The notes under the pieces were generated by a model that was not told the DNA's origin, searched no databases, and was given only the letters and a program-made list of their open reading frames with translations. Shown piece after piece: positions 30,201 to 63,190 of a DNA stretch of 64,000 bases (the first letter of the stretch is position 1; each line of letters opens with the position of its first letter). The stretch is from Mesonia phycicola (GTDB lineage Bacteria > Bacteroidota > Bacteroidia > Flavobacteriales > Flavobacteriaceae). The DNA lies in contig NZ_FQYY01000010.1 in the NCBI RefSeq assembly GCF_900141885.1, positions 1 through 64,000 on the forward strand. Reading direction: 5' to 3'. The translations under genes and the position numbers were made by a program.

Positions 30201-30246
30201 TCACGGAATACAGTTAAAGAATATCCGTTTGATAAAGCCAAATTTG
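30201..30246 (+). promoter_or_regulatory. regulon promoter: 16-bp palindrome, 22-nt spacer, -7 box (site 1)
   Basis: TCACGGAATACAGTTA (30201-30216), exactly 22 nt, then CAAATTTG (30239-30246), a TAnnTTTG-like -7 box. It lies 21 bases upstream of the gene at 30268. Same geometry as 11 other sites in this window. Confidence 0.8.
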
Positions 30247-30267
30247 TATTAAACAAAAGATACAAAG

Positions 30268-30957
30268 ATGGATTTTAAAACAATGTTACAATTACCGGTA
30301 TTAGATACTAAAACCGTGATAAACGTACTTCAAGAAATTGCAGATATAGAAAGAAACGAAGAAAGACCTCAAATGCCTCAAGTAAGCATAACCACTTCTT
30401 CTAGCAGTGCAAATGGTTTTTTTGTGAATTACGACTCAGATAAGCATACTATTTTATTATGTGATATGTATGACCGCAAGGCACAATTTCAATATATAGA
30501 AGTACATTCTGTTGCTTCAATTACTGTAAGTAACATTAATAAATACAGCTATTTATTATCAGACGGAAATATTCCTTTTGTTCCTGAAGATGATGAGATA
30601 CCAACAGTACTTCAGCTTAAAAAAGATATCAAAGCATTAGAAGAGGAAGTAAAGGCAAATTTAGAAAAAGGATTTTCTATAGCTTTTAACTATAACGGTA
30701 CTCCTGAAGCTATAGATAAATTTTACGCTTCTAAAGTGATAAAATTATTACAAAAAACATTATCTAACATAGCAGCAGATAATTTAGCAAAAACAGCGTT
30801 TACAGATACTATAACTACTGTTAACTTCTGCTTAGGCTTAGAAAACAAAACCGTTCAAGAAAAAGAAGTTATCACAATAACTATTGATACTTCTAAAGGA
30901 TTAAAGAGTTTCCCAAAAGAAAAGCAATTACAAGAACAAATAGAAAAAGGTTTATAA
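30268..30957 (+). CDS. hypothetical cytosolic protein of the 12-site regulon
   Basis: 229 residues without signal peptide or membrane segment. The N-terminal half has alternating strands (QVSITTSSSSANGFFVNYDSDKHTILLCDMYDRKAQFQYIEVHSVASITVSN) and the C-terminal half is helical and charged (VLQLKKDIKALEEEVKANLEKGF). I do not recognise a family. It is preceded by regulon site 1 and followed after 16 bases by the Hcp/TssD-like gene, with which it is probably co-transcribed. A helper or adaptor for that tube-like protein is possible but only inference. Confidence 0.7.
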   Translation: MDFKTMLQLPVLDTKTVINVLQEIADIERNEERPQMPQVSITTSSSSANGFFVNYDSDKHTILLCDMYDRKAQFQYIEVHSVASITVSNINKYSYLLSDGNIPFVPEDDEIPTVLQLKKDIKALEEEVKANLEKGFSIAFNYNGTPEAIDKFYASKVIKLLQKTLSNIAADNLAKTAFTDTITTVNFCLGLENKTVQEKEVITITIDTSKGLKSFPKEKQLQEQIEKGL

Positions 30958-30973
30958 ATTTAAAACATATATT

Positions 30974-31366
30974 ATGCAAGATTCTAACGTAGTAAGTAAA
31001 ATTGAATTAATAATTAGAAAAGATAATAACGCTGAAAAAAAAGTTGTTTTAAGTCAATGTGATTATAATTTTAATAAAGATTTTTATTCAGAAGAAAAAA
31101 ACCCGATAGATATTAATTTCTCCGGAACTACTAAAATGATGAATGATTCTTTATTTATAGAGTGGCTTGCTAACACAGAAGCAGAATGGTCTGGTAGTGC
31201 AAAAGTATTTCATAGAGATCAAGAAGAAGCTTCTATTTCTTTAGAATTTGATAAATCTTTTGTAGTAAGCTTTAGCCAATCATTTTCTGAGTATAACTCT
31301 CATAATGATGCCTACTTTACTGTTATTCTTAAAGGTGTTTCTTTTAATAACATAAAATTGAATTAA
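30974..31366 (+). CDS. Hcp/TssD-like protein (Bacteroidota type VI tube family)
   Basis: 130 residues. The pattern KIELIIRKDNNAEKKVVLSQCDYNFNKD, GTTKMMNDSLFIEWLANTEAEWSGSAKVFHRDQEEASISLEFDKSFVVSFSQSF and FTVILKGVSFNNIKLN follows the Bacteroidota TssD/Hcp family (beta-barrel with central helix, 'l.eWl' helix start, 'G.i.f...d....l.i.F..a.c...s..f'). Length matches. No other type VI structural gene is visible in the window, so this is an orphan or accessory tube-like protein; a specialised member of the 30-64 kb regulon. Confidence 0.6.
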   Translation: MQDSNVVSKIELIIRKDNNAEKKVVLSQCDYNFNKDFYSEEKNPIDINFSGTTKMMNDSLFIEWLANTEAEWSGSAKVFHRDQEEASISLEFDKSFVVSFSQSFSEYNSHNDAYFTVILKGVSFNNIKLN

Positions 31367-31402
31367 AAAAACATCTTTTATTACAGCAAAGCATACAATA
31401 GT

Positions 31403-31438
31403 AAAAACCTTTAAGATAGTTTCTTAAAGGTTTTTTTA
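31403..31438 (+). terminator. rho-independent terminator
   Basis: AAAACCTTTAAGA and TCTTAAAGGTTTTTTT pair around TAGTT. Ends the 30268-31366 transcription unit. Confidence 0.8.
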
Positions 31439-31521
31439 TGAATATTACTTCTGTTTTAGTGTACAAAAAAAGGGAAAAACCACAGTAGCTTCTCCCCTAT
31501 TTTTTTATTACAATTATATTA

Positions 31522-31917
31522 CTATAAATTGTTTTCTAAATATTCACGTATTACTAAATCTGTATAATAACCGCTGTGATGACCACCCCAACAAGCCGTT
31601 AAAGAAAATACTCCATTCTCTAATTTAAGATCTTTCTTAGCTTCTGCATCTTCATTTGGTATACAAAAAACCTCTATTGAGTTTACGCTTTCTTGTATAG
31701 CCTCTTGCCCCATATCGTCTTTACAAACCTCTTTTAATCCGTCTGTAAGACGTTGTAAACACACACTTGGCACAAACTTTATAAAATCTAACTCAAAAGT
31801 ATCCCAATTAATGTTGATAGGTAACTCTTTTCCTACAATTTCATTAATTTCTTTTTGGTAATCTCCTAAATATTGTTCTTCTATAGATTTTGCTGCTCTT
31901 TTCTCTTGTAAGCCCAT
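31522..31917 (-). CDS. hypothetical protein of the 12-site regulon
   Basis: 131 residues from ATG 31917 (MGLQEKRAAKSIEEQYLGDYQKEINEIVGKELPININWDTFE). The longer frame to 32001 would run through its own promoter, so it is rejected. Charged, cytosolic; conserved-looking C-terminus VFSLTACWGGHHSGYYTDLVIREYLENNL. Family not recognised. It is transcribed away from the lipoprotein gene at 32064, each with its own regulon site in the shared intergenic region. Confidence 0.72.
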   Translation of the reverse strand: MGLQEKRAAKSIEEQYLGDYQKEINEIVGKELPININWDTFELDFIKFVPSVCLQRLTDGLKEVCKDDMGQEAIQESVNSIEVFCIPNEDAEAKKDLKLENGVFSLTACWGGHHSGYYTDLVIREYLENNL

Positions 31918-31941
31918 AATTTTATTTTTTAGTTTATAAAT

Positions 31942-31987
31942 CAAAAATATATTTCTCTTACCACAGTTAAGCAACACTATTAAGTGA
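31942..31987 (-). promoter_or_regulatory. regulon promoter (site 3, minus strand)
   Basis: Reading leftward: TCACTTAATAGTGTTG (31987-31972), 22 nt, then TATTTTTG (31949-31942). The palindrome is the weakest of the twelve (10 of 16 match the consensus), but spacing to the -7 box is exact and it fits the start at 31917. Confidence 0.65.
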
Positions 31988-31997
31988 ATATAAAAAC

Positions 31998-32043
31998 TCA
32001 CTGAATTCCGTGAGCGTTAAAAAAGGTTATAGTTTTAAATTTA
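31998..32043 (+). promoter_or_regulatory. regulon promoter (site 2)
   Basis: TCACTGAATTCCGTGA (31998-32013) is palindromic except for one base pair. After 22 nt comes TAAATTTA (32036-32043), 7 of 8 to TAnnTTTG. It serves the lipoprotein gene starting at 32064. Confidence 0.82.
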
Positions 32044-32063
32044 CTTTTTATATACATTTTTTT

Positions 32064-33053
32064 ATGAAAACTATTCTAATTGTTGGCTCTTGCCTTTTAC
32101 TTATTTTATTTCTTTTTACCAATTGCGCGCAAATAGCTGGTGGAATATCTAAAAAAAAAGCAGCTAAAAATATAGATGAATTTTTAAAGAAAGAATACAA
32201 AGGTAAACTTGCATATAAAAATTTGAGTAGAGCATTTAACACCGCTACAATGAACCCTAATTCATTTTTTATTCACGTCTACAATAAAAAAAATCCAGAA
32301 ATAGAATTTTATACCTACATAGATGCAAAAAAAATTGTGACTAACAAATATGCTACTTCTTATAAAATTAAATTGGAAGAGCAATACCAAAGAATTGTAG
32401 AATATTATAACACAGAACAAAAAGTAATAACAGAATTTAGTAATGATACTTTATCTGTAGACTTTTTAGATAACGAAATAATTGCTTTAAATTTTAATTA
32501 TGAAATTAACGCTGAAGAATTAAAAACCTTTTGCACTAAATTTTTAAATAGATTAAATGAATCTTATGAAATTTTACACAATGGTACCTCACGTAAACTA
32601 CTTGTAAAAACACCTAATTTTAATGATGGATTAGTATCTATTCCTTTACAAATAGAAGAACAACAACAGTGGTCTATAGGTTATTATTTTTTAGCAGAAA
32701 ACTTAGTTAATGCTGAAGCTTTTAAAACAAAAATTGAAAGTAATATACAAGCTAAACTAGACCAACATTACCCATATTACAAAATAAATGAATATAAAAA
32801 AGTGTTTTTAGACAAATCATCTTTATCTAAAGGTGCTTGGGTACAATATTTATTAGATACAAGAATTAATAATGAAGAAAATGAAAAATACGAAAATCCG
32901 CTAGTGGGAATTTATATAGTGTATTTTGATTTTGAAACAAACTTTATTTATCGAGGAGAAATGCTTACTGAAAATAATGGTGTAATTTCTTATGAAGAAG
33001 AAATAAACAAAATTAAAAAAGCCTTAAATGAAGAAGGCATTGTAACAGAATAG
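32064..33053 (+). CDS. hypothetical lipoprotein of the 12-site regulon
   Basis: 329 residues from ATG 32064 (MKTILIVGSCLLLILFLFTNC, lipobox with Cys near residue 21). A start at 32010 would lie within the regulatory palindrome. The body is rich in Lys/Glu/Tyr/Asn with no known domain (VEYYNTEQKVITEFSNDTLSVDFLDNEIIALNFNYEIN, KGAWVQYLLDTRINNEENEKYENPLVGIYIVYFDFE). It is the only clearly envelope-anchored effector candidate in the regulon. Confidence 0.75.
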   Translation: MKTILIVGSCLLLILFLFTNCAQIAGGISKKKAAKNIDEFLKKEYKGKLAYKNLSRAFNTATMNPNSFFIHVYNKKNPEIEFYTYIDAKKIVTNKYATSYKIKLEEQYQRIVEYYNTEQKVITEFSNDTLSVDFLDNEIIALNFNYEINAEELKTFCTKFLNRLNESYEILHNGTSRKLLVKTPNFNDGLVSIPLQIEEQQQWSIGYYFLAENLVNAEAFKTKIESNIQAKLDQHYPYYKINEYKKVFLDKSSLSKGAWVQYLLDTRINNEENEKYENPLVGIYIVYFDFETNFIYRGEMLTENNGVISYEEEINKIKKALNEEGIVTE

Positions 33054-33102
33054 CTAATTAAAACGGATTATAACATTATGCTTCCCCCGTTTTAATGTTA
33101 AT

Positions 33103-33738
33103 CTAATCAAACAAGCCAGATTCTATGGCAAATTTCACGGCTCCTGTAGTTGTTTTAGAGCCTGTTTTTAAAAGAATATTTTTTCTATGCGTTTCTACAG
33201 TGTTTACAGAAATAAATAACTTTTCAGATATTTCTTTAGAAGTTAGCTCTTCACCTAAAAGCTCTAAAACTTGCTTTTCTCTTGGAGAAAGTTCTATGTT
33301 TTTATACTTTTTACGTTCAAAAACACTCTCCATATAACGCTGTTTAATTAACTCAGAGAAGTATTGTTCGTCATTTAAAACCGTTCTTACTGCTTTTTGT
33401 AACTCTTCTTTACTTGTAAATTTTGGTACAAAACCATCTGCTCCTTTTTGTATAACTTTATGCACAGTTCTGTGGTTATCTAGCATACTTAACATAATAA
33501 TTTTTACGCCATTATGTTTCTTTTTAATTTCTGTAAGCAACTCTATACCATCCATTTTAGGCATACTAATATCACTTATAATTAAATGAATTTCAAACTG
33601 ATTTAATAGTCTAACTACCTGCTTCCCTTCTGTAGCTAAATGAACTTCATTAATCTCTTCCATATCACTTAAAATAGTATTAATACCTTCAAGAAACATT
33701 AAGTGATCGTCTGCTATAATTATATTTATCTTTTTCAT
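33103..33738 (-). CDS. NarL/LuxR-type response regulator
   Basis: 211 residues. Receiver domain INIIIADDHLMFLEGINTILSD .. LIISDISMPKMDGIELL (phospho-acceptor Asp in ISD near residue 56) with the conserved Lys region in GADGFVPKFTSKEEL. C-terminal LuxR HTH: IELSPREKQVLELLGEELTSKEISEKLFISVNTVETHRKNILLKTGSKT. Six bases downstream of the histidine kinase gene. It is the last gene of the operon beginning at 42232, whose promoter carries a regulon palindrome. LuxR-type dimers bind 16-18 bp palindromes, so this is the prime candidate for the regulon's activator. Confidence 0.92.
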   Translation of the reverse strand: MKKINIIIADDHLMFLEGINTILSDMEEINEVHLATEGKQVVRLLNQFEIHLIISDISMPKMDGIELLTEIKKKHNGVKIIMLSMLDNHRTVHKVIQKGADGFVPKFTSKEELQKAVRTVLNDEQYFSELIKQRYMESVFERKKYKNIELSPREKQVLELLGEELTSKEISEKLFISVNTVETHRKNILLKTGSKTTTGAVKFAIESGLFD

Positions 33739-33744
33739 AAGCTA

Positions 33745-35712
33745 TTAATTTATAGGTATATCTATCATAATAGAAGTTCCGCTCCCTAAGGTACTATCTA
33801 TTTCTAGTGTGCCTTTCATTTTATGAATTCTATCTTTAATATTACGTAGACCTATTCCTGGTTTTTTATTTTTCTGAAAACCTTTTCCATTATCGTTAAT
33901 AACAATATTGAGATGGTCTTCATGTTTAGTAAGCTGCACATCTGCCTCGGTAGCTTCTGCGTGTTTTAAAATATTATTAATTAGCTCTTGTACAATACGA
34001 TACACATCTGCTAAAATAGTATCTGATAACTGATCTACTTCTTCTTCTGGAAAGAAAAAAGTTTTAATAGTTAATTCTGATTTAACTGAAATTTGTTCAA
34101 TAAAATCATTTAAAAAACTAGTAAATCCTATTTTAGAAAATGATAAAGGGTGTAATTGGTGAGAGAGACTACGCACGTCTATACAAGCATTATTTATAGC
34201 TTTTGCAATTCTATTAGATTGTGCTTCGTTTTCATGATTTTCTACATAATGCTCAAATGCAATTTTAATTCCGGCCAAATCACTACCAATACCATCATGT
34301 ATTTCTCTTGCTAATCTAGCTCTTTCTTCATCTTGGCCTTCTTGGTAACGCTCTATAACAGATAATTTATGATCGTTAATCATTTGATTTATCTTTTGCT
34401 TGGCATTTTCTTCTTGTTGCTCTCCTAATTCTTTTTGTATTCGTAACCTTTTTACATAAGAAATTCTTAAAATAATTAAGGTTAACAAAATTAATACAAA
34501 GCCTGCTATTAAAACGTTTCTTACTAAGAGTTGTCTTTTTACTGTTAGTTCTGCTTTTTGTAATTCTGCTTCTCCTAATTTTTGTTCTTTTTCTAATAAC
34601 TGAATACGTGCTTCTTTTAATTCTGTTTCATAACGTTCTTGTATTTCTGCTACGTATTTTTCTTTATCCAGTGAGTTTTTCTCTTCTACAGTCGCTACTC
34701 CTTTCTGGTAATATTCTAAAGCTTTTTTATAATTATTTTCTTCTTCATATAAATTAGCTAAGTTTTTATATATATCAGAATTATAACGTAGTAAAGACTG
34801 GTTTTCCCCTATGGTTAGGGCTTGTTGAAAGTAATTAATTGCTAATTTTGTATGCCCAAGTTTAGATTCACATAAACCTAAATCATTTAAAACTATAGCA
34901 ATGTCTGAAGTAAATTGAAGTTCTTTTAAAAGCGACAATGTTTTTTTTAAGGGCTGTATAGCTTCTTCACATTTACCCTCTTCTACTAACATTTGAGAAA
35001 GGTTAATATTTATATAAGCTACAACTGCTTTGTTTCCTTCTTTTTCTCTATAATTTAAAACAGTTTGATAATGCTTTCTTGCTTGATCAAACTTACCTTC
35101 TTCTTTTAAAATATTAGCAAAATTAAATAGAGTAGTTAAAACACCATCATCGTCTCCCAATTCACGATACAAATTAGCAGCACGATCTAAATTTTCTGCA
35201 GATTTCTTATATTCTTTTTGCAATAAATAGAGGGTCGCTATATTTTGATATGCATTGGCTTCTTGAGTTTTATCATCTGTTATTTCAGCATAACGTAAGC
35301 ACTCCATAAAATTGTCTATAGCTTTAGGGTACTCGGCTATATTTTTATAGGCAGACGCTAATATATTATAACAAGCTGCTAAACCTTCTTGTATTTCTAG
35401 TTTTTTAAGTAATGTGATAGCATTGTTGGTAAAGTATATTGTATTTTTATAATCTCCCGTAACGTTACTTAAATTCCCTAAAGCATACAGCGCCCTCACT
35501 TCTTGCAAAGGTATGTTAGATGACTTACTTTCTTCTAACCATTGTAATGCCGCTTCTTTTGCTAATTGTGGTTTGGTATACAAGTTAGTTTGGTAAGCTT
35601 GAGATAAAGAGTCTATTAAAGACGTATTATCTGAAAGTTGAGACCAAGAAACCGTATATACGCCTAAAATTAGGCATAAGGTTAGAAAAATATGTTTTAT
35701 AGGTTGTGTCAT
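33745..35712 (-). CDS. TPR-containing histidine kinase
   Basis: 655 residues: signal peptide (HIFLTLCLILGVYTVSWSQ), about nine tetratricopeptide repeats (for example ACYNILASAYKNIAEYPKAIDNFMECLRYAE) in the periplasm, a coiled coil, one membrane helix (VLIAGFVLILLTLIILRISYV, about residues 400-420), then HisKA_3 with the phospho-acceptor His in ERARLAREIHDGIGSDLAGIK and a HATPase (VQELINNILKHAE .. IVINDNGKGF .. GIGLRNIKDRI). NarL/DegS-type partner of the response regulator downstream. Ligand or trigger unknown; the TPR sensor is typical for Bacteroidota. Confidence 0.92.
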   Translation of the reverse strand: MTQPIKHIFLTLCLILGVYTVSWSQLSDNTSLIDSLSQAYQTNLYTKPQLAKEAALQWLEESKSSNIPLQEVRALYALGNLSNVTGDYKNTIYFTNNAITLLKKLEIQEGLAACYNILASAYKNIAEYPKAIDNFMECLRYAEITDDKTQEANAYQNIATLYLLQKEYKKSAENLDRAANLYRELGDDDGVLTTLFNFANILKEEGKFDQARKHYQTVLNYREKEGNKAVVAYININLSQMLVEEGKCEEAIQPLKKTLSLLKELQFTSDIAIVLNDLGLCESKLGHTKLAINYFQQALTIGENQSLLRYNSDIYKNLANLYEEENNYKKALEYYQKGVATVEEKNSLDKEKYVAEIQERYETELKEARIQLLEKEQKLGEAELQKAELTVKRQLLVRNVLIAGFVLILLTLIILRISYVKRLRIQKELGEQQEENAKQKINQMINDHKLSVIERYQEGQDEERARLAREIHDGIGSDLAGIKIAFEHYVENHENEAQSNRIAKAINNACIDVRSLSHQLHPLSFSKIGFTSFLNDFIEQISVKSELTIKTFFFPEEEVDQLSDTILADVYRIVQELINNILKHAEATEADVQLTKHEDHLNIVINDNGKGFQKNKKPGIGLRNIKDRIHKMKGTLEIDSTLGSGTSIMIDIPIN

Positions 35713-35736
35713 CTTAAAATCGCAAACTTAATGCCT

Positions 35737-42255: not shown

Positions 42256-42301
42256 CTAAGGTAACTTGGATGCTTGAAGTTCTTATCACTGAAATTAGTG
42301 A
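42256..42301 (-). promoter_or_regulatory. regulon promoter (site 4, minus strand)
   Basis: Leftward: TCACTAATTTCAGTGA (42301-42286), 22 nt, TACCTTAG (42263-42256; 7 of 8 to TAnnTTTG). It drives the operon 42232 to 33103, which encodes the two-component system, so the regulator would be autoregulated. Confidence 0.82.
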
Positions 42302-43480: not shown

Positions 43481-44344
43481 TTATAACATATTTTCTACTT
43501 CAGAATCATCTGAAGATGTATTGGTATTGCTTGTAGCTGTATAAGGTTTATGGTTTTCTATCACCACATTTGCAATACGTTTAGCAACGGTTTTATAATC
43601 AGGAATTTTAATAAAATTTTCTCCCAAAAGTGTTTTCCAATTGCCTTTACGGCTTTCTTGTTTTGCCCATTCGTTATGTTCTAAATGCATATGGAACACA
43701 TTATATTTTTCTTGTGCTTCTGCAATAATAGCTTCTGTAGTAATGGTTTCTGCTTGATTAGTACAGGTATATCTTTTAATAATTTCTGCAGGAATGGTAG
43801 GAAAAACAGGTTCGTCTCCAATGGTAAATAAAAATCCTTTTTGTTGTCTTTTTTCCCAACAATCAATAGACGTATGGCGCGCCGCAAATAAATGTGCTAA
43901 ATTATAACCTTCTTGATTGTTTCCACCACCGCCTCCTTCAAGGTAAACACGAGTTAACCAACGGTCTAACAACTCGGCAGACGATTCAAACTGACCTACT
44001 TGCAAAGGTGCTCTGTCGTATATAAAATCACCAATCCCTAAAAAGAGTACTTGTGGGTCTTCAATTCCCGCTTCCATTAATGAGCCTATAAGGTCTGGTA
44101 GCGCTTCTTTTACAATATGTTCTGGCACAAACCCCATACTACCGGTAACATCTAAAGCTACAATAATAGATACACTTTCTGGATGCTCTTCAGAATCTCT
44201 AGATTCTCTAACAAGTGCTTTAACGGGGTCCATTTCTGGGTCTAGTGTTCTAGATGTAAATATTTCTTCTCTAGATTTATTACTGTAATTTTTTGCTTTT
44301 CTTAAACGTGCGTAGGCATCGTTACTAAATCTTCCTCCTCCCAT
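43481..44344 (-). CDS. VWA-domain protein
   Basis: 287 residues. The MIDAS motif is in IIVALDVTGSMG (D-x-T-G-S-M), with the later Thr/Asp pair supplied by the LEGGGGGNNQEGYNLA and FTIGDEPV regions. The N-terminal 60 residues (MGGGRFSNDAYARLRKAKNY) are basic and unassigned. VWA domains bind metals and other proteins and often work with MoxR-type ATPases, but no ATPase is seen here. The stop abuts the start of the PurA-like gene, so the pair is tightly coupled. Confidence 0.88.
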   Translation of the reverse strand: MGGGRFSNDAYARLRKAKNYSNKSREEIFTSRTLDPEMDPVKALVRESRDSEEHPESVSIIVALDVTGSMGFVPEHIVKEALPDLIGSLMEAGIEDPQVLFLGIGDFIYDRAPLQVGQFESSAELLDRWLTRVYLEGGGGGNNQEGYNLAHLFAARHTSIDCWEKRQQKGFLFTIGDEPVFPTIPAEIIKRYTCTNQAETITTEAIIAEAQEKYNVFHMHLEHNEWAKQESRKGNWKTLLGENFIKIPDYKTVAKRIANVVIENHKPYTATSNTNTSSDDSEVENML

Positions 44345-44713: not shown

Positions 44714-44759
44714 CAAAGTTAGCGGCTGTGGTCTTCATTTTTATCCCTGATAACAGTGA
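44714..44759 (-). promoter_or_regulatory. regulon promoter (site 5, minus strand)
   Basis: Leftward: TCACTGTTATCAGGGA (44759-44744), 22 nt, TAACTTTG (44721-44714), a perfect TAnnTTTG. Drives the coiled-coil/VWA/PurA-like operon. Confidence 0.85.
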
Positions 44760-44793: not shown

Positions 44794-44839
44794 TCACGGA
44801 ATACAGGCATTTACCGCTTAAATAAGCCGCTTATATTTG
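44794..44839 (+). promoter_or_regulatory. regulon promoter (site 6)
   Basis: TCACGGAATACAGGCA (44794-44809), 22 nt, TATATTTG (44832-44839), a perfect TAnnTTTG. It lies only 34 bases to the right of site 5, so two divergent operons share one control region. Confidence 0.85.
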
Positions 44840-45867: not shown

Positions 45868-45913
45868 TCATTGGTTTCAGGGATAAGAACAAACCGCATT
45901 AGCTCTAATTTTG
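45868..45913 (+). promoter_or_regulatory. regulon promoter (site 7)
   Basis: TCATTGGTTTCAGGGA (45868-45883), a drifted palindrome, 22 nt, TAATTTTG (45906-45913), a perfect TAnnTTTG. Drives the gene at 45940. Confidence 0.78.
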
Positions 45914-45939: not shown

Positions 45940-46587
45940 ATGGGATTAACAATTTCAAGTGGGATATTAGTAGATTTTAAAGACAATGAACCTGAAGCTT
46001 TTGAAGCTTACAAGGCGATTTTTGAAAATATAAATACTATTCTTGCAAAAAATGGTGTAGCGCCGTACGAAGAACCTATAGAGATGAATAAAGAGCCATT
46101 ACAATTTGGCGGCTTTCCTTATAGTTTTTTACACCATTTAAGACGATTTGCAGCACACGTTTGGGAACAGAAAGACAATGAAAATTGGGACTGGACCCCA
46201 ACACCATTTTCTATTGATGATGAACCTGGTGCAGATGCAATTTTAGAGGAGCATTATACGTATATGTCTAGTCATCTTTTAACACACTCTGATGCAGAAG
46301 GTTTTTATCTTCCTGTAGAATTACCAGAAGTTCTTTTTGATACAGAAGAAGCACCGGTACCTGGAGCTATGATTGGTTCGTCTTATGATTTGTTAAGTGA
46401 ATTAAAAAGTCTTACCGCACATTTAGGCATTGGTTTAGATGAAAATGACAACCTTACTAATGTGGATGAATTGAATGCAATTATAACTAACGAAGACAAT
46501 TTTTGGATCGAAATTTTAGTGTGTGTGACTCTTATAGATGCAGCAAAATTTAGTATTCAAAACAAAACAGCAATCCTTTTTAATTAA
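45940..46587 (+). CDS. hypothetical protein of the regulon
   Basis: 215 residues, acidic, cytosolic: MGLTISSGILVDFKDNEPEAFEAYKAIFENINTILAKNGVAPYEEP ... HHLRRFAAHVWEQKDNENWDWTPTPFSI ... FYLPVELPEVLFDT. I recognise no family. Monocistronic behind site 7. A small hairpin CCTGCAA/TTGCAGG at 46629-46648 follows without a T-run. Confidence 0.68.
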   Translation: MGLTISSGILVDFKDNEPEAFEAYKAIFENINTILAKNGVAPYEEPIEMNKEPLQFGGFPYSFLHHLRRFAAHVWEQKDNENWDWTPTPFSIDDEPGADAILEEHYTYMSSHLLTHSDAEGFYLPVELPEVLFDTEEAPVPGAMIGSSYDLLSELKSLTAHLGIGLDENDNLTNVDELNAIITNEDNFWIEILVCVTLIDAAKFSIQNKTAILFN

Positions 46588-48096: not shown

Positions 48097-48142
48097 TCAC
48101 GGAAAACCGTTACCTAAAAACCTAAGTAAAGCTTCATTTTTG
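48097..48142 (+). promoter_or_regulatory. regulon promoter (site 8)
   Basis: TCACGGAAAACCGTTA (48097-48112), 22 nt, CATTTTTG (48135-48142; 7 of 8). Drives the five-gene operon 48170-51115. Confidence 0.8.
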
Positions 48143-54837: not shown

Positions 54838-54883
54838 TAAAATTATAAAAGCACCTTGTTATTTTTATCACGGGATTCAGCCA
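54838..54883 (-). promoter_or_regulatory. regulon promoter (site 9, minus strand)
   Basis: Leftward: TGGCTGAATCCCGTGA (54883-54868), 22 nt, TAATTTTA (54845-54838; 7 of 8). Right half-site is strong (CCGTGA), left weak. Drives the operon 54758 to 51199. Confidence 0.75.
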
Positions 54884-55017: not shown

Positions 55018-55632
55018 TTATAATGAAATATGCCCAACAATAGCACCATCTTTTACAACAAAAAGAGCATTAATGATGGGAGCATTTCCAAAACTATCGT
55101 CATTCCAAGTATGGTTGTGTAAGTAAACAAATTTGTTCACCGTATCTTCATCGGCGGTTTTAGAGATCACCATCATACAAGAACGTCTTGGAATTGAAAC
55201 TAATAATTCTTCGGCTTCTAACATAGCGTGCGCTTTTAACATATGCGATTTAGAAAGAATACGTTCACTAGAAAAATCATTTCCGCTAGAGGCAAGAGCT
55301 TTATTGTTAAGTGCTTCAACAAATTCGAAATCTGTATGATAAGCTTCTAAATTGGTAAAAGCCTCTTGGGTAATCTGTTTAGCATCCATAGTCTCTAAAT
55401 GCTGTTGCGTTAAAAATACAAAGTTGTCTGGTGTATCCATACCGTACCCAATCACAACTTCAGCACCATCTGCAGACGGAATTAAAGTAGAACTCAAAGC
55501 CCCAGCTTTTAAGCCAACCCAGTTGCCTGGTTTTAAAATTGGATAGATTTTTTTATCGCTATTTTCAGTTTGTTCTACTATTTTAGCTATTTCTTCTGGT
55601 GTTTTTTCTGGGCCGTAAATTGTACTACTCAT
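55018..55632 (-). CDS. hypothetical protein of the regulon
   Basis: 204 residues, cytosolic, mixed alpha/beta: YGPEKTPEEIAKIVEQTENSDKKIYPILKPGNWVGLKAGALSSTLIPSADGAEVVIGYGMDTPDNFVFL and a C-terminus IPRRSCMMVISKTADEDTVNKFVYLHNHTWNDDSFGNAPIINALFVV. Overall arrangement resembles small adaptor or immunity-like proteins, but I recognise no named family. Monocistronic behind site 10. Confidence 0.68.
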   Translation of the reverse strand: MSSTIYGPEKTPEEIAKIVEQTENSDKKIYPILKPGNWVGLKAGALSSTLIPSADGAEVVIGYGMDTPDNFVFLTQQHLETMDAKQITQEAFTNLEAYHTDFEFVEALNNKALASSGNDFSSERILSKSHMLKAHAMLEAEELLVSIPRRSCMMVISKTADEDTVNKFVYLHNHTWNDDSFGNAPIINALFVVKDGAIVGHISL

Positions 55633-55656: not shown

Positions 55657-55702
55657 CAAAACTAGAGAAGCCTTTCAATCTATTTCTCACGGTATTCAGC
55701 CA
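55657..55702 (-). promoter_or_regulatory. regulon promoter (site 10, minus strand)
   Basis: Leftward: TGGCTGAATACCGTGA (55702-55687), 22 nt, TAGTTTTG (55664-55657), a perfect TAnnTTTG. It drives the gene 55018-55632. Confidence 0.82.
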
Positions 55703-56532: not shown

Positions 56533-57048
56533 TTAGTACTCTAAATACATAATATGATTGGGATTAGTATGCGTTTCTGATATTTTAAAATCAAAAGCGC
56601 CTACAATTTTAAATCCCATTTTTTTATAAAATTGAATTGCTTTTTTGTTTTCTACCCAAACGGCAAGCCAAATGCCATTTTGTTTATTTGCTTTAGATAG
56701 TTTTACATTAAAATTAAAAAGTTCTACGCCTAGTTTTTTTCCGTGAAAAGTTTCTAGAAGATAGATTCTATCTAACTTGGTAATTACTGAATCTTTTATG
56801 TTTTTGTTGGTCGTATTTAATATGATTTTTGAAAATCCAGCAATAACATCATCACAATAAATCAGGTGATAATGTACATTATCATTTTCAAACTCTTTAA
56901 TAATTAATTCTTTACGATAGGTTTTAGAGATGTAATCTTCAATATCTTTTTTGGAAGCACTATGACCGTGAGATTCAAAAAAAGTTTGCTTTCCTAGTTC
57001 TGCAATTAAATTGGAATGTGTGGAATTTGCTTTTATAATTTTAACCAT
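56533..57048 (-). CDS. GNAT N-acetyltransferase
   Basis: 171 residues. GNAT core: VIAGFSKIILNTTNKNIKDSVITKLDRIYLLETFHGKKLGVELFNF (acetyl-CoA motif around HGKKLGVELF in place of RGxGxG) and AVWVENKKAIQFYKKMGFKIVGAFDF (late motif NKKAiqFYkkmGF). Substrate unknown. Probably co-transcribed with the SH3-like gene. Confidence 0.85.
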   Translation of the reverse strand: MVKIIKANSTHSNLIAELGKQTFFESHGHSASKKDIEDYISKTYRKELIIKEFENDNVHYHLIYCDDVIAGFSKIILNTTNKNIKDSVITKLDRIYLLETFHGKKLGVELFNFNVKLSKANKQNGIWLAVWVENKKAIQFYKKMGFKIVGAFDFKISETHTNPNHIMYLEY

Positions 57049-57119
57049 TACAATTTGTTTTTCTTTTTATGTGAAATAACATTTTTTGGTGAAATTATAT
57101 TTTATTTCTTCGAAACAAT

Positions 57120-57446
57120 TTAATTCTCATCTAGAATTAAAGTTTCTAGCATTATAGTTTTAGTATCTAAAATTTGAAAGCTTCCAGCTCCCGAAATTTG
57201 TTTTGTAAATAACTGATGATTGTCGTTATAAGAAACGCCAGTATTAACATCAAACGTGAAGGCTGCATTTTTAAATTTAAAGTTCTTTTTTGTGCTGTTT
57301 ACTAAGATATTGATAGAATTTAACGTCACATCCCAATAGCTAGATGCAGTGTTTCCTAATTCTGATTTGGCAAGTAAATTTCCCCACGTTTTATTAGAAT
57401 TTGAAATTTGATTTGCCAATTGGTCTTGTATCTTTTTGGTAGTCAT
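57120..57446 (-). CDS. hypothetical protein
   Basis: 108 residues from ATG 57446 (MTTKKIQDQLANQISNSNKTWGNLLAKSELGNTASSYWDVTLNSINILVNSTKKNFKFKNAAF); the upstream MVNFKI start overlaps the preceding gene. Beta-rich C-terminus. Small partner gene of the DUF4132 region, 11 bases after the gene at 57458. Family unknown. Confidence 0.65.
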   Translation of the reverse strand: MTTKKIQDQLANQISNSNKTWGNLLAKSELGNTASSYWDVTLNSINILVNSTKKNFKFKNAAFTFDVNTGVSYNDNHQLFTKQISGAGSFQILDTKTIMLETLILDEN

Positions 57447-57457
57447 TATTTTAAAGT

Positions 57458-57871
57458 TTACCAATACGTACCGACTAAAAATGTCATTCTGATAAAAGCA
57501 ATAACACTTTCTGGTGTTAGTTGTAATGGTTTTTTTACATCGGTTATTTCCTCATCGTCTACAAAAACCACGAATAAACCATCTTTAAAAGCAAGTAATA
57601 CATTCTCTATGGCTTTGTCTAAATTTGCTAAATCTGTGTTATTAATTTCTCCAAAGTCTACTTTACCGCTTTGGGCTTGTTCTTGAATTTCGGCTGGTGT
57701 TAAAAATCCAATCACATTAACTTCTAAACGTTTTTTATTAAAAGCTTCCACTTGGTTTTTTACACAACCAATTAACAATTCTTCCAAGTTTTTTGGTGTT
57801 TCTTCTAATGTAAAAGGGATTTGTTTGACCTTTTTTTTACCTAATCTTTTAAGTTGTAACGTAAGTTCCAT
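57458..57871 (-). CDS. small protein downstream of DUF4132 gene
   Basis: 137 residues from ATG 57871 (MELTLQLKRLGKKKVKQIPFTLEETPKNLEELLIGCVKNQVEAFNKKR); the longer frame to 57916 runs into a GC-rich element. Ends in LTPESVIAFIRMTFLVGTYW. A protein of this size and opening accompanies DUF4132/DUF5724-type genes in other bacteria to my recollection, but that needs a search. Probably co-transcribed with the DUF4132 gene. Confidence 0.65.
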   Translation of the reverse strand: MELTLQLKRLGKKKVKQIPFTLEETPKNLEELLIGCVKNQVEAFNKKRLEVNVIGFLTPAEIQEQAQSGKVDFGEINNTDLANLDKAIENVLLAFKDGLFVVFVDDEEITDVKKPLQLTPESVIAFIRMTFLVGTYW

Positions 57872-57888
57872 TGGTGTACGTGTGTTTT

Positions 57889-57975
57889 GCGTTAGGGATT
57901 GCCGTGGAAAGCCCACAGTGCGACAGCACGAGGACTTGCAACAGAAAGCCCGCCCTCACCTAAGTGAGGGAACGC
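57889..57975. other. GC-rich intergenic element
   Basis: The 87 bases between the DUF4132 gene and the next gene are far richer in G+C than anything nearby. They contain GCGTTAGGGATTG, GTGGAAAGCCCAC, and the hairpin CCCTCAC-CTAA-GTGAGGG (57953-57970). The 'GGATTG..GGAAAGCCCG' wording is a recurrent intergenic element in Flavobacteriia as I recall it. It could be a terminator, an attenuator or a small mobile palindrome. Confidence 0.55.
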
Positions 57976-57991
57976 CTTAATGCTGTTAAAG

Positions 57992-60900
57992 TTAGCTATT
58001 TATTTGTGCTAAAATGGTTGGGTCTTGAATTTTATTATCTTCGGAAAGTAATTTCATTTTAGAAATAATTTCTGCCGATTTTGGGTCGTCGTCTACAAAT
58101 GGCAAGAACATACGTCCGCGATGTTGGCTGTGCACCGGAATAATAGATAATGCTAATCCGTTTTTGCTCACCATACCGCTGCCTAAATGAATGCTGTATT
58201 CGCCAAGTTTTCCTTTAATAAATACGTGACGCTCTTTAACCGTAATGTTAGCAAGCTTGAATAGTTTTGCAGATTCTTCGGCTAATGCTGCACGCATTTG
58301 CATTGTGCTATGGCTAGCTTCTGGGTCTACACCACCCACGTGAGCCACGCTAACTACTAAGTCGATATCTCGCATAATTTCGCTAAACACAACTTCTGGA
58401 ATTTCGGTTAACGGAATTCGCTGATAGGTGTCTATTGCGTGGAAACAGATATCTTCTAAGGTTGGTGCTTCTGCCTCTGAGGGCGAATACCAATCTGCCA
58501 TTGCATACATTGTGGCAATGAAACCACGTTTGTGATATACTTTTTGCAATCCATCTTCCATACTTACCGTCCAACCACGACCACGTAAAAGTGCTACGGT
58601 TTTTTTAGGTTGAATCTGGTAACCTTGGTAACGTTCTGAGCGGTTGCTGTGTTCGCGCTCATCGTCTGTAATGAGGTACAATTCTCTAAACACTTGTTTA
58701 AATGGTTGCACTAAACGTTCTGCAAATAGGTGTTTTTGATACGTATCCCATTCTACAGTTTTGTATAAATGAGAAGCGTGAGCTATACGTAACACATCGG
58801 TTTCTGCCAATGCGTGTGTTTTTCCTGTTGGATTGGTTAAGACACCTTCTTTGTAAAATCCTGTAATTTCTTTTTCTGGAACGTACATTACCAATTTGCT
58901 AAGAATAGCTTTAACAATGGGATGCTGCATCATTTTTTGAATTTCTGATGCTGTAAATTCATCTTCGTTTACCATTGCATTTTCTAGAGATAAACGCGTT
59001 CTGCTATATTGTCTAGACAGATAGGTTTTATGGTCTTTTAAAGTAATAACTTGCTTGTCTTTGCGCAATTTAGCAGGAATATTTTTTAGAGATTTACCCG
59101 CTTTAGTCACTTTTATTTCTGCTTTACCAAGCTCGTTTATTATAAGTTCTATTTCTGTTACTTCTATGGTGATTTTAGCATTCTGCATAATGGTTTGTGT
59201 GGCTTTTGCCTCCATAGCCCAACTAAAACGTACACGGTCTGTATAGCCTGCCGTACGCGATAAATTATCTAGTGCAATTTCTACAGCAATAGCTTCACTC
59301 TCTTGACGTTGCGCACCAAACTGCTTACTTTCTTTAAGGAAGTCTTGCAATAAGTTGTAACGCTTTAAAAGGTCTTTTTCTGGTACGGTTTTACTTAACG
59401 GAATTAAACCTAAAGCACGCACATAATCTTTATCGCGCTTGTCTTTAATTTTCTTCAACGTTTCGGTAATTTTAACTTCACCAAGCATAACACTAGAATA
59501 GAGTTTTACTTGACGGTGTCCGTTACCATCAGAAATATATTTGGCCGCATCGTGAAGTAATTTCCAATTAGATTTACCAATGGCTGTATACACTTTATTA
59601 AACCAATCTACATCTATTGCACCAAGAGCAAAATCACTTTTAGGGATGTTAGAATAGCGTGAAATAATGGTTTCTTTCTCCGAATTCATATAATCTGAAG
59701 CGTGAGCCTGGAACCACCAAACGGCACTTTCTAAATTTTCTAGACCTAGATATTCGCCCACAACACCTGTCCATTGCGTAGCATAACACGCCAACTCTAC
59801 CAAGCGTTTTTTAGTGATTTTAGAGGTATCTGCCAGTTGAGCAAAATCGGCATAACTTTCGGTATCTTTAAAGGCTGTTTTCTTTAAAATATTGCTGAAA
59901 ATTGTTTTTCTGCTATCGCCATAATAACTGTAACCGCGCTCAAAATTATCTTTACCTAAACGTTCTAATATTCTGAATACATAATTTACACCTTCTACAC
60001 GATGAATCCCTGACATATATCCTGTAGCCGTAGTTGTTATATCGCCTCGTTCTAATTCGGTCTCTAATAAATTAGCTTTTAATGGCTCGATAACGTGTTT
60101 AGGAATAGAGCCACGTTCTATTAATTTATAATTCATTCTATAATTAAACCCGCCATCCATAATCACCATTAACTCGTGTGAGTTTAAGGCCTGAAAACGT
60201 AAATCGTCATCATTAATTAAACCTGCTTTATAAAGTTTTAAAGTGACTTCTAATTTAGGAAAAGGCACAACACCAGGTCTTTTCTCCTGTTCTGTAATCA
60301 CTTTAACGTCTGTAGTAGCTGTAGGATGATTAATATCTTGCGCCACTAAATACATATAAAGCCCCCAATACCTTTGTAATTGTTCTGAAGATAAATAGTC
60401 TAAATTTGTATTGCTTAATCCTGGTGCTAGTGGTAATACCACATTGGCCCAATTATAAGTCTTGGTATTGTAACGATAATTAGAAGACTGAAACTGTACG
60501 AGTTTTAGATTATTAGGGAAATTGGCAATCATATCTTCCATCACATCTAATTTAAAAGAAATGATGGTTTTCATATCTGTATACACTTTAGCCAAACGTC
60601 TTAAAATGGTTTCGTACGAATCTGAAGTGGTATAATATTGCCTAGCATCACCTAAATTTAAACCGTTTAAATCTGGATAATATTGTCTTGCAAAAGGCTC
60701 TAAATCTTTATAGTCTCCAAACGGATTATTACGATTAGCGATATAGCGAATGGCTGCATACATTTCAAAATCGTTAAGTTTACTTTGCTCGTACCAAGCA
60801 ATCCAAACCTCTGCCAATGGGATATTGTGTAAGCGTTCTTCTGCAGTTGCATTATCCCCTAAATTTTTAATATCTCTTATCCCTTTTGCTATATAGGTAG

Positions 60901-62995
60901 TTGCTATTTCGCCTTGGTAAACTTCGGTTTGATATTCGTGATTTTTATTTTGGGTTACTAAATCTATAAGCCCATTTACTTCTTTTATAATTTTGTTGGT
61001 ATCTATAAATTCTTTGAACTTGAATTTAGAAGATTCAGATAGTGAAATGCCCAACTTATCAAAGAAACTCGTCTTCGTTTCAAAACGAGATACGGGCTGA
61101 TATAGTGGCGTTAAATTATCGTAATCTATGGCGCCAAAACCATTACTATAGTTAAATTCTTCTGCATTTTCTGAAAACTTATCTAGGTAAACTTGTTCGT
61201 TTTTAGTAATTTTTGGACGCGCGTTATATGTTTTAATCTGTTCTTCAACAAAATTAGATTGCCTATTACTATCGTGTAAAAGGGTTAACAATTCTAAGCC
61301 TGCTAAACGTTGGTCTATACTTTTTGAAGTTACTAGATTAATAGTAGTATTTCTTAAATCATCTACCGTTAACTTTAGTATTATTTGTAGTAATGTAGTA
61401 CGTAAATTTTTATGTTTTCGTTTTAACAAATCTTCTACAATTTGTAAATCTTCTTCGTACAAATGCATTCTACTAAATAAATTGAGTCCGGTAGCCATTA
61501 ATATTTCATTTCTATTACAAATGATAGTTCTGGCTAAAGCACGTTTCCAATTATATTTGTCTAAATTTAAACGTTCTCTTTTTTCTGCATTTAGATTTAA
61601 ATTATAAAACGAATAGCTATATTGTTTAGGGTACACTTTACGTATATATTCTTCTCTAAACTCTGTAGGGAATACCTCTACATCTTTAGCCATTAACTCT
61701 AATTGTGCTTCTGTAGCGCTATAAATTAAAAAGCGAAAGAAGTAATAAGAAGAAGGTGTAAAACTCCACCACGAGAATATTTTACTCTCAAAGGTTTTAC
61801 CTTTTTCTTCTGCTGTTTTGGCAACCTCTAGCAATTTTTGAAGAGTAGTATCATCTAATGGAGTTTCTGGTAAGTTTACCGCCAACCAATGGTCTACAGC
61901 GTAATCTTCGCCTAAGTGTTCTGTAAAATAAGGCACTAAAGCATCATTAGTTCTATCTGTTTTACTAATAAAGTATAAGGCTAGAATTTTTTTGTGACGA
62001 TCTTTAGACTCCAACACAATATCTATTGCCTTTCTATTAGCCGTGTCTACATCTAAAATTGCAATAGACCACAACCCAATCAAGACTTCTAAATTATCTT
62101 TACTTTTTAAGTAAGTATCTACGTCTTTTACATTTAAAATTAACGTGTGTGCTAATTCTAGCACACGATTAATTACCGATTTTTTAGGCGTATCCCAATT
62201 TAATCCAAACCACGCGCTTACTGCTTTGGTAACACTTGTAAAACGCGTAAGGTCGTTATCTAAAACAACCTTAATCATATATTTTAATGCACTAAGTCCC
62301 GCTTCGTCTAAAGACTCTAAAATGGTTTGTCTTAAGCCTTCTTGACGTTGTGCTGCCAATAATAACTTGGCTACCATTTCCCAGTGTTTTTCTTCTTTAG
62401 AAAACAACAAGGCTTTAATAATGTCTGAACTTATTCCTCCAACTTCATCTTCTCCCTGAATAATATCGTCTAACAGTTCATCAAACATTCCATTGCCGTT
62501 ATGGAGTAAAGTAGCTAGAAAATAACTATTTCCGTGCGGGAAATAGGTGCTGTATTGAAAATGTTCTTGTAAAGATAATCCGCCAAAACCTTTTCTACTT
62601 AAACTTAAGAAATGTGTAAAAACTTGAAGTTTATTACGCAATGTATCTTCCGTTTTTACAGACCTAAACGCTTTTCTATTATAACCTTTTTGGTAAGGTA
62701 AAGTATCTATAAAGTCCCACATATCTGCTAAGTATGGTGCTTGTATAATACCAAATAATTGCATCCCTAAACGCATTCCTTCTTCGTTACGCCAAGGGTT
62801 ATTATTAATGGCATCTTCAGAAACCGCAATGTAATCTGTAGTGGTATAATAATCTCTTCTTTCGCCTTTATCAATGCGACCTAAAATTTTAGCTAGTACT
62901 CTATAAGGCTCAGAAAATGCACGAAATTCAAAACGGTCTACTTCTGGTTTTCTATGGATGTGAATATGCTTTTCAGCTTCTTCTATTGGAATCAT
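57992..62995 (-). CDS. DUF4132 (with DUF5724-like N-terminus) giant protein
   Basis: 1667 residues. The last 350 or so carry the DUF4132 domain: RELYLITDDEREHSNRSERYQGYQIQPKKTVALLRGRGWTVSMEDGLQKVYHKRGFIATMYA and VVSVAHVGGVDPEASHSTMQMRAALAEESAKLFKLANITVKERHVFIKGKLGEYSIHLGSGMVSK. The N-terminal 1200 residues are helical and repeat-like, as in DUF5724-DUF4132 proteins. No signal peptide or membrane segment. E. coli MolR and YehI belong to this family; no function is established. It is the largest gene of the window and of the regulon (site 11). Confidence 0.88.
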   Translation of the reverse strand: MIPIEEAEKHIHIHRKPEVDRFEFRAFSEPYRVLAKILGRIDKGERRDYYTTTDYIAVSEDAINNNPWRNEEGMRLGMQLFGIIQAPYLADMWDFIDTLPYQKGYNRKAFRSVKTEDTLRNKLQVFTHFLSLSRKGFGGLSLQEHFQYSTYFPHGNSYFLATLLHNGNGMFDELLDDIIQGEDEVGGISSDIIKALLFSKEEKHWEMVAKLLLAAQRQEGLRQTILESLDEAGLSALKYMIKVVLDNDLTRFTSVTKAVSAWFGLNWDTPKKSVINRVLELAHTLILNVKDVDTYLKSKDNLEVLIGLWSIAILDVDTANRKAIDIVLESKDRHKKILALYFISKTDRTNDALVPYFTEHLGEDYAVDHWLAVNLPETPLDDTTLQKLLEVAKTAEEKGKTFESKIFSWWSFTPSSYYFFRFLIYSATEAQLELMAKDVEVFPTEFREEYIRKVYPKQYSYSFYNLNLNAEKRERLNLDKYNWKRALARTIICNRNEILMATGLNLFSRMHLYEEDLQIVEDLLKRKHKNLRTTLLQIILKLTVDDLRNTTINLVTSKSIDQRLAGLELLTLLHDSNRQSNFVEEQIKTYNARPKITKNEQVYLDKFSENAEEFNYSNGFGAIDYDNLTPLYQPVSRFETKTSFFDKLGISLSESSKFKFKEFIDTNKIIKEVNGLIDLVTQNKNHEYQTEVYQGEIATTYIAKGIRDIKNLGDNATAEERLHNIPLAEVWIAWYEQSKLNDFEMYAAIRYIANRNNPFGDYKDLEPFARQYYPDLNGLNLGDARQYYTTSDSYETILRRLAKVYTDMKTIISFKLDVMEDMIANFPNNLKLVQFQSSNYRYNTKTYNWANVVLPLAPGLSNTNLDYLSSEQLQRYWGLYMYLVAQDINHPTATTDVKVITEQEKRPGVVPFPKLEVTLKLYKAGLINDDDLRFQALNSHELMVIMDGGFNYRMNYKLIERGSIPKHVIEPLKANLLETELERGDITTTATGYMSGIHRVEGVNYVFRILERLGKDNFERGYSYYGDSRKTIFSNILKKTAFKDTESYADFAQLADTSKITKKRLVELACYATQWTGVVGEYLGLENLESAVWWFQAHASDYMNSEKETIISRYSNIPKSDFALGAIDVDWFNKVYTAIGKSNWKLLHDAAKYISDGNGHRQVKLYSSVMLGEVKITETLKKIKDKRDKDYVRALGLIPLSKTVPEKDLLKRYNLLQDFLKESKQFGAQRQESEAIAVEIALDNLSRTAGYTDRVRFSWAMEAKATQTIMQNAKITIEVTEIELIINELGKAEIKVTKAGKSLKNIPAKLRKDKQVITLKDHKTYLSRQYSRTRLSLENAMVNEDEFTASEIQKMMQHPIVKAILSKLVMYVPEKEITGFYKEGVLTNPTGKTHALAETDVLRIAHASHLYKTVEWDTYQKHLFAERLVQPFKQVFRELYLITDDEREHSNRSERYQGYQIQPKKTVALLRGRGWTVSMEDGLQKVYHKRGFIATMYAMADWYSPSEAEAPTLEDICFHAIDTYQRIPLTEIPEVVFSEIMRDIDLVVSVAHVGGVDPEASHSTMQMRAALAEESAKLFKLANITVKERHVFIKGKLGEYSIHLGSGMVSKNGLALSIIPVHSQHRGRMFLPFVDDDPKSAEIISKMKLLSEDNKIQDPTILAQINS

Positions 62996-63063
62996 ATCTT
63001 ATTGTGCTTAATCTCTTATTTAAATGTAAAATATTAGCCTATATAAACAGGCAATATTGGCTT

Positions 63064-63109
63064 GCAAGATAAATGTAATCTTAAATTTTGAACTCACGGT
63101 ATTTAGTGA
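63064..63109 (-). promoter_or_regulatory. regulon promoter (site 11, minus strand)
   Basis: Leftward: TCACTAAATACCGTGA (63109-63094), 22 nt, TATCTTGC (63071-63064; 6 of 8). Palindrome is strong, -7 box weakest. It drives the DUF4132 gene at a distance of 68 bases from the -7 box. Confidence 0.75.
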
Positions 63110-63144
63110 TTTTTTCTATTTATGGATTTTTTCGGCTTGTAATA

Positions 63145-63190
63145 TCACAGAATACAGTGACAAATAACACTGTGTTTTAAAATAGGTTTG
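63145..63190 (+). promoter_or_regulatory. regulon promoter (site 12)
   Basis: TCACAGAATACAGTGA (63145-63160), close to a perfect palindrome, 22 nt, TAGGTTTG (63183-63190), a perfect TAnnTTTG. Drives the LRR gene starting at 63214. Confidence 0.85.

Follow-up and report, generated by a model that had tools for sequence, protein, structure and literature searches.

The closest described counterparts of the system reported here are the class II regulons of NarL/FixJ-type regulators, such as those of LuxR, VraR and UhpA. LuxR-type activators in class II position are centred at about -42.5, as is, by general account, the lux box. The 64,000-nucleotide (nt) stretch of the Mesonia phycicola genome analysed here (contig NZ_FQYY01000010.1, positions 1 to 64,000; hereafter, the window) carries a comparable arrangement: a 16-bp palindrome with its centre near -42.5 recurs at twelve promoters, each time 22 nt from a TAnnTTTG-like box, and a regulator composed of a receiver and a GerE/LuxR-type helix-turn-helix (HTH) is encoded among them. 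Unlike the known class II regulons, the window promoters use the Bacteroidota TAnnTTTG box, the 22-nt spacing hardly varies over dozens of sites in several paralogous systems, the kinase contains TPR repeats and the regulon consists mostly of uncharacterised genes. We propose, with a probability of about 0.77, that the twelve sites serve as the operators of a single regulon, read by the regulator encoded at 33103-33738 as a class-II-type activator.

The PorXY-SigP system of Bacteroidota likewise places a gene set under two-component control, and PorX reportedly acts through an extracytoplasmic function sigma factor. In the window, by contrast, the regulator is of NarL type, and the palindrome is found at the TAnnTTTG promoters themselves. 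The sigma-A promoters of Flavobacterium psychrophilum, grouped as SM1-SM6, share the TAnnTTTG box, and one window site resembles SM5 (TAnnTTGY); these are, however, sigma-factor motifs, and as far as the main text of that study goes, no palindrome is mentioned (PMC9723704). Searches of the open-licence literature gave, by title and among the results listed, no description of the motif, the regulon or the genes, in line with the original prediction, which knew of no description of the system. They gave no paper on DUF5724, one that contains both DUF4132 and MolR, and two that pair names from among DUF1266, DUF4132, DUF1963, DUF6892, YwqG and DUF7737. NarL-type control with class II activation is a known kind of system; neither this regulon nor its strict spacing appears to have been described. 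Activator geometry at the unusual promoters of Flavobacteriaceae has been little described, and the rule of palindrome, 22 nt and TAnnTTTG is a testable one for finding directly activated regulons in this family. Here, about 30 genes, most of them uncharacterised, and an alpha-2-macroglobulin gene come under one switch by this rule.

Twelve palindromes at one distance from the promoter box

The original prediction had listed twelve sites between 30 and 64 kb of the window, on both strands, all with the same gap to the box and with a gene start after it. Direct reading of both strands bore this out, coordinates and strands included: the distance from the end of the palindrome to the TAnnTTTG-like octamer is 22 nt at 12 of 12 sites (Table 1). 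An activator site at one fixed distance from the core promoter is a class II feature, and the distance peaks at 22 in other clusters too. The octamer matches TAnnTTTG exactly at six sites (31972(-), 44744(-), 44794, 45868, 55687(-) and 63145), with one mismatch at five (30201, 31998, 42286(-), 48097 and 54868(-)) and with two at 63094(-), the DUF5724 promoter, whose box (TATCTTGC, 63064-63071) fits TAnnTTGY and recurs as an identical octamer in genomes G014 and G100. Compared with TCACNGAATNCNGTGA, the palindromes have 0-2 mismatches at nine sites and 4 at the other three (31972(-), 44744(-) and 45868), which would not stand alone. The sites at 44744(-) and 45868 are kept in G014, and the weakest of all, 31972(-), scores 15.2 bits (genome-wide E 0.16). 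Start codons follow the box after 16-27 nt at ten sites, after 68 nt at 63094(-) and after 79 nt at 54868(-), as calculated from the table of open reading frames (ORFs) with an internal ATG used as the start for those listed at 31522, 32010 and 44839.

The main text of PMC9723704 places the TAnnTTTG box of F. psychrophilum at -12 to -5. Positioned likewise, the window palindromes would extend from about -50 to -35 and be centred at -42.5, so that the class II region originally predicted holds, while the predicted value of about -41 does not. The spacers have no strong letter pattern. Since a -33 element was not identifiable in F. johnsoniae, according to the relevant part of PMC7366714, its absence from the window spacers provides no extra evidence.

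Table 1. Palindrome sites of the window, with the 22-nt gap between palindrome and box, their predicted targets, and the candidate regulatory pair.
Feature	Coordinates	Strand	Palindrome	Box	Predicted targets or basis
Site 30201	30201..30246	+	TCACGGAATACAGTTA	CAAATTTG	Predicted targets 30268-30957 (229 aa), 30974-31366 (TssD/Hcp-like)
Site 31972(-)	31942..31987	-	TCACTTAATAGTGTTG	TATTTTTG	Predicted target 31522-31917 (131 aa)
Site 31998	31998..32043	+	TCACTGAATTCCGTGA	TAAATTTA	Predicted target lipoprotein-like gene, likely start ~32064, end 33053
Site 42286(-)	42256..42301	-	TCACTAATTTCAGTGA	TACCTTAG	Inferred operon 41177 (SMI1/KNR4), 38646, 37983 (DUF1266), 35737, kinase 33745, regulator 33103
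Site 44744(-)	44714..44759	-	TCACTGTTATCAGGGA	TAACTTTG	Predicted targets 44347, 43481 (VWA-like by eye), 42344 (adenylosuccinate-synthetase-like)
Site 44794	44794..44839	+	TCACGGAATACAGGCA	TATATTTG	Predicted target DUF7738/DUF6892 gene, likely start 44860
Site 45868	45868..45913	+	TCATTGGTTTCAGGGA	TAATTTTG	Predicted target 45940-46587
Site 48097	48097..48142	+	TCACGGAAAACCGTTA	CATTTTTG	Predicted targets 48170 (DUF1963), 48952 (DUF2262), 49390 (DUF1963), 50154 (Endonuclease V family), 50684
Site 54868(-)	54838..54883	-	TGGCTGAATCCCGTGA	TAATTTTA	Predicted targets 54384, 52003 (LRR), 51199 (weak DUF4253)
Site 55687(-)	55657..55702	-	TGGCTGAATACCGTGA	TAGTTTTG	Predicted target 55018-55632 (DUF1444)
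Site 63094(-)	63064..63109	-	TCACTAAATACCGTGA	TATCTTGC	Predicted targets 57992-62995 (DUF5724/DUF4132/DUF7737) and genes after it
Site 63145	63145..63190	+	TCACAGAATACAGTGA	TAGGTTTG	Predicted targets LRR protein genes from 63214, extending past the window
NarL/LuxR-type response regulator (Response_reg and GerE), proposed palindrome reader	33103..33738	-			Pfam
Sensor histidine kinase with TPR repeats (HisKA_3, HATPase_c)	33745..35712	-			Pfam

Distribution of the sites within the genome

The twelve-site observation is confirmed as correct and lies well past chance. When up to 4 mismatches are allowed, the composite pattern has 16 oriented placements at gap 22, against 1-6 at each of 25 other gaps (10-35). 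In the genome of the window (G000 in our sample; 3.28 Mb, with the block at 30-63 kb of contig C42), the composite at up to 3 mismatches has 10 matches, 9 of them at C42:30-63 kb, and its reversed control has none. The palindrome alone, at up to 3 mismatches, is not enriched genome-wide (303 matches against 432 in the reversed control); it is, thus, the fixed spacing that carries the signal.

A matrix was built as a sequence-only model of the twelve 46-mers, which are its training data, and 150 first-look candidates were scored per genome (150 of 5386 in G000, where very weak sites may be missed). In G000, it gave 16 matches at E<=1: the twelve sites (E 1.7e-4 to 0.16), C22:196390 (E 0.044) and three weaker matches (E 0.38-0.98), among them one that overlaps a known site. 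The whole-genome scan thus added a single site, C22:196390, below E=0.3, and the sites are nearly absent elsewhere in the genome. Within the first 30 kb of the window, where none had been noticed by eye, the scan with filters off gave nothing below E=1. Six genomes without the cluster had 0-2 matches each (8 in total, best E 0.12). G014, which lies outside the matrix training, had 12, ten of them distinct sites in one cluster, parts of which are nearly identical to the window. At E<=1, the more divergent clusters were represented by 6 matches in G294, 3 in G236 (two overlapping), 3 in G257 (one in the cluster) and 2 in G100.

The added site consists of TCACGGTTTACCGTGA, 22 nt and TAATTTTG, and lies upstream of a bacterial alpha-2-macroglobulin gene that is followed by a PBP1C-like gene. 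Eight of the 12 genomes searched have the alpha-2-macroglobulin gene. In G000 and G001 it is directly preceded by a gap-22 site, and in G248 and G019 such a site precedes it via one or two upstream genes. The original description of the block as one system stands as regards the shared geometry, and falls short in that one site is on another contig and the geometry is common to paralogous systems elsewhere.

Conservation of the spacing in related clusters

A corresponding gene block was found in G014, G236, G257, G100 and G294 and, around the regulator, in at least four further carriers: Winogradskyella wichelsiae, Flavobacterium frigidarium DSM 17623, Leeuwenhoekiella aestuarii and Mesonia hippocampi, the last with a block much more divergent than those of the other carriers. 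The sample includes two genomes of the same genus as the window, G053 and G273; both lack DUF5724 and any regulator match at E<=1e-50. At nine other cluster loci, palindromes were chosen by the palindrome alone (up to 2 mismatches), ignoring the boxes, which gave 58 oriented placements. A box with at most one mismatch stands at gap 22 in 22 of these 58, compared with 0-3 for every other gap between 5 and 44. Of the 37 distinct palindromes, 27 are followed by a gap-22 box at up to 2 mismatches; the remaining ten comprise eight two-mismatch palindromes with 3-6 box mismatches and two perfect ones, which are considered below.

Palindrome and distance are conserved across orthologous promoters, whereas the spacer letters are not. 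For two orthologous promoters, each compared over 8 genomes, the mean pairwise identity was 92% (at 31998) and 84% for the palindrome, 30% (at 31998) and 38% for the spacer, and 69% and 85% for the box. The 30201 site is kept in 7 other genomes, with the box CAnnTTTG in 8 of 8. Sites are also kept at 48097 in G014, at 55687(-) in G014 and G294, and at 63145 in G014 and G236, and the counterpart of the gene behind the site at 44714-44759 has gap-22 sites in G014, G236 and G257. The matrix scan, the gap-22 sites that accompany the block in nine other genomes and the conservation of palindrome and spacing uphold the constant-geometry regulon that had been predicted.

Many block genes are 92-100% identical between G000 and G014, which belong to different genera, and others are 47-78% identical. 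This mosaic (window 30268-62995 against G014:C1:2563605-2597065) points to recent transfer and recombination between genera.

A NarL-type regulator as the best candidate reader

Among the 30 block proteins searched with Pfam, the products of 33103-33738 and 33745-35712 are the only regulator pair recognised. They have the receiver, the LuxR-type HTH and the adjacent HisKA_3 kinase of a NarL-type two-component system, and the solved structures closest to the regulator are VraR, NarL and RcsB. G000 has no other match to the regulator at E<=1e-22. In eight other genomes, four of which were found by searching with the regulator, it is 82-93% identical and its kinase 57-78%, while other cluster neighbours range, outside G014, from about 25% to 91%. 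A regulator of at least 91% identity occurs in 5 of 299 family genomes, and the composite site is present in 5 of these 5 against 24 of the 294 others; leaving G000 out, the co-occurrence is 4 of 4 (p=6e-5). The regulator gene ends a run that starts at site 42286(-) and has short or no intergenic gaps, which makes positive feedback likely.

Kinase genes of related systems may also be preceded by a site. Eight paralogous loci were chosen by regulator similarity (40-47%), and a gap-22 site lies directly before the kinase in two of them (G294 and G019 C12). The same holds in G250 (regulator 36-37% identical) and G238 (40%), two loci found through the motif. In a tree from which G011 was left out, the nine regulators of at least 82% identity formed one clade and nine paralogues of 40-47% another, with G250 apart. 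Taken together, the product of 33103-33738 may be regarded as the best candidate reader of the palindrome.

Sister clusters and the reach of the 22-nt rule

Two sister clusters, on C12 of G001 and C20 of G011, each have their own regulator (47-48% identical) at one edge and a palindrome variant, TCCCTGWWWWCAGGGA. Oriented pairs of a TCCCTGWWWWCAGGGA-type palindrome and a box at gap 22 number 7 in G001 (6 distinct palindromes) and 5 in G011 (4 distinct palindromes), whereas every other gap has 0-2. The two stretches, G001:C12:757656-775612 and G011:C20:100635-116598, contain secreted, LRR and weakly SUKH-like genes, and each stretch lies beside its own TPR kinase and NarL regulator.

Across the 299 genomes, the relaxed pattern TCMCTGNWWNCAGKGR-N22-TANNTTTG with at most one mismatch had 44 matches in 20 genomes (3 in G000) against 2 in the reversed control. 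The outer half-sites alone, as TCAC-N8-GTGA-N22-TANNTTTG without mismatch, had 21 matches in 18 genomes against 4; many of these 21 have unrelated cores, so the outer half-sites by themselves do not define the regulon. With up to 2 mismatches, the composite had 48 matches (6 in G000) against 22 in the reversed control, and most genomes with a single match probably owe it to chance. DUF5724 was above the cut-off in 13 of the 299 genomes, and a composite site occurs somewhere in 8 of these 13 against 21 of the other 286. Gap-22 sites accompany the DUF5724 unit in genomes without a regulator of at least 91% identity, namely G119, G033, G220 (one about 540 nt upstream) and G294; G297 has one of doubtful orientation, and none was found at the unit in G127, G050 and G259. 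A MORN-like family of 855-892 aa (854 aa in G172) is encoded near gap-22 sites in G001, G220 and G172, with a homologous partial frame in G164. The pattern from the paralogue loci gave, at its strictest setting, 7 placements at gap 22 and no more than 2 at any other gap, a count that is partly circular because the pattern was chosen after some of those sites had been seen.

A 22-nt rule for Bacteroidota NarL regulators at large was also considered and rejected, since there is no gap-22 peak around 76 loci with regulators 31-40% identical; at a looser setting, these loci gave 6 placements at gap 22 and 13, a heterogeneous set, at gap 24. Identical TACCCTGAAGAGGGTA-N22-TAnnTTTG sites were observed near NarL regulators in Pedobacter agri (L130:7962) and in a metagenome-assembled genome of Chitinophagaceae (L158:10659). 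In G121, TCACCCNNNNGGGTGA-like sites lie 22 nt from TAnnTTTG at C1:3205134 and C1:3207633, close to a kinase/regulator pair of distant relationship (about 23% identity).

Proposed mechanism and rival explanations

We propose that the TPR histidine kinase would activate the NarL-type regulator, a dimer of which would bind the palindrome near -42.5 and recruit RNA polymerase to the adjacent -7 box in a class-II-type manner. The 22-nt spacing would keep activator and polymerase at the right distance and on the right face. With kinase and regulator last in a putative operon that begins at a site, activation would be self-reinforcing, and the output would comprise about 30 block genes, in operons that are themselves predicted, together with the alpha-2-macroglobulin/PBP1C locus on another contig.

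Several observations weigh against this proposal. G294 keeps the cluster and its gap-22 sites (TCACTGATTTCAGTGA, TGGCTGAATACCGTGA and others) without a close orthologue of the regulator: the best match, at 41% identity, lies about 100 kb from the cluster, which is flanked by a distantly related pair (regulator about 25%). This leaves two readings, a takeover by the 41% paralogue or a reader other than the local one. G001, G248 and G019 have the alpha-2-macroglobulin site as well, all without a regulator of at least 91% identity, and the alpha-2-macroglobulin stretches examined on both strands in G119, G121, G250 and G294 had no visible gap-22 site. Six of the eight paralogous loci chosen by regulator similarity lack a clear site directly before the kinase: there is none in G119, G248, G001 C22 and the second G236 copy, the site of G019 C22 is weak and distant, and those of G001 C12 are only in the adjoining cluster. 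Of the two perfect palindromes without a gap-22 box, one (G100, 1601754) has its nearest box at gap 21 and the other (Mesonia, L092:692) has boxes at gaps 27 and 29. Around the 76 distant loci, gap 22 occurred 2 times, gap 23 6 times and gaps 12 and 19 4 times each.

The G294 and alpha-2-macroglobulin findings would be expected if the palindrome were read by an activator encoded elsewhere, a NarL paralogue or a Crp/Fnr-type dimer, with the local pair as passenger or target, and the outer TCAC/GTGA half-sites are Crp-like by common description. We consider this unlikely given the co-occurrence and the high conservation of the regulator, the sites upstream of some paralogous kinase/regulator operons, the sister clusters that pair an altered palindrome with their own regulator, and the single regulator of this subfamily in G000 at the threshold given above. 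A repressor operator immediately before the core promoter is a quite improbable reading of the palindrome. Promoter-adjacent palindromes are often operators, and activation is the predicted sign of regulation here; however, repressor sites are generally held to vary in position, and a constant gap of 22 nt, with the palindrome centred at -42.5 and clear of the core promoter, is regarded as typical of class II activation.

Fixed spacing would also be compatible with an alternative sigma factor that directly recognises a long upstream element set off from a variant -7 box, and some boxes do deviate, with TATCTTGC fitting the SM5 motif TAnnTTGY given for F. psychrophilum in the main text of PMC9723704. 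This is more improbable still: the two-fold palindrome is as expected of a dimer, six boxes are canonical TAnnTTTG, and Pfam recognised no sigma factor among the 30 block proteins, the Sigma70_r4 matches being the HTH of the regulator. A dispersed repeat, with the sites as copies of one mobile promoter-like element, or mere chance, is strongly disfavoured. The sites do cluster in one block, and the block is mobile, with many genes 92-100% identical to those of a different genus, but spacers and flanks differ among sites and drift among orthologues while palindrome and spacing stay. Activation by the product of 33103-33738 is the reading that we prefer.

Gene content and possible function

Pfam searches of the block identified TssD/Hcp, SMI1/KNR4 (SUKH-1), DUF1266, adenylosuccinate-synthetase-like, DUF7738/DUF6892, DUF1963 (twice), DUF2262, Endonuclease V family, LRR, DUF1444, GNAT and DUF5724/DUF4132/DUF7737 proteins; the VWA-like assignment of 43481-44344 was read by eye, and the intact frame of the LRR gene at 63214 has 837 aa. 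The TssD-like protein matches the Hcp1 structure weakly (E 0.004), and because the type VI secretion sheath protein VipB/TssC (PF05943) was found in 0 of 6 cluster genomes, it would be an orphan. When nine proteins were searched against PADLOC-DB, the only matches were those of the C-terminal part of the regulator to CARF models and of the kinase to a TPR model, nothing beyond generic domains; ten proteins searched against NCBIfam, and the 1667-aa and VWA-like proteins searched against solved structures, gave nothing informative. Recurring near other gap-22 sites are a DUF1963 relative, LRR-like proteins and a weak SUKH match (E 0.006, below the cut-off).

As commonly described, the orphan immunity arrays of polymorphic toxin systems likewise combine SMI1/KNR4 (SUKH-1), DUF1963, LRR and DUF4253 proteins, the last weakly matched in the window, in one block. 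The window differs from them in having no toxin domain in the Pfam scans, no type VI secretion sheath and many other families, and its function is predicted only. The block content and the alpha-2-macroglobulin gene suggest protection from envelope attack or immunity, and the regulon may respond to envelope damage or attack. More tentatively, inducible 'counter-attack' regulons might form a diversifying family in Flavobacteriaceae, in which paralogous TPR-kinase/NarL pairs, with their own palindrome variants and one 22-nt rule, would switch on immunity-like arrays (SUKH-1, DUF1963, LRR and MORN-like), the DUF5724/DUF4132 giant protein and alpha-2-macroglobulin upon envelope attack, and whose clusters would move between genera with their regulator; we hold this wider picture to be possible and rather doubtful.

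No family is assigned to the 131-aa protein encoded at 31522-31917, which is almost as conserved as the regulator (69-89% identity in eight other genomes) and contains an invariant TACWGGHHSG stretch.

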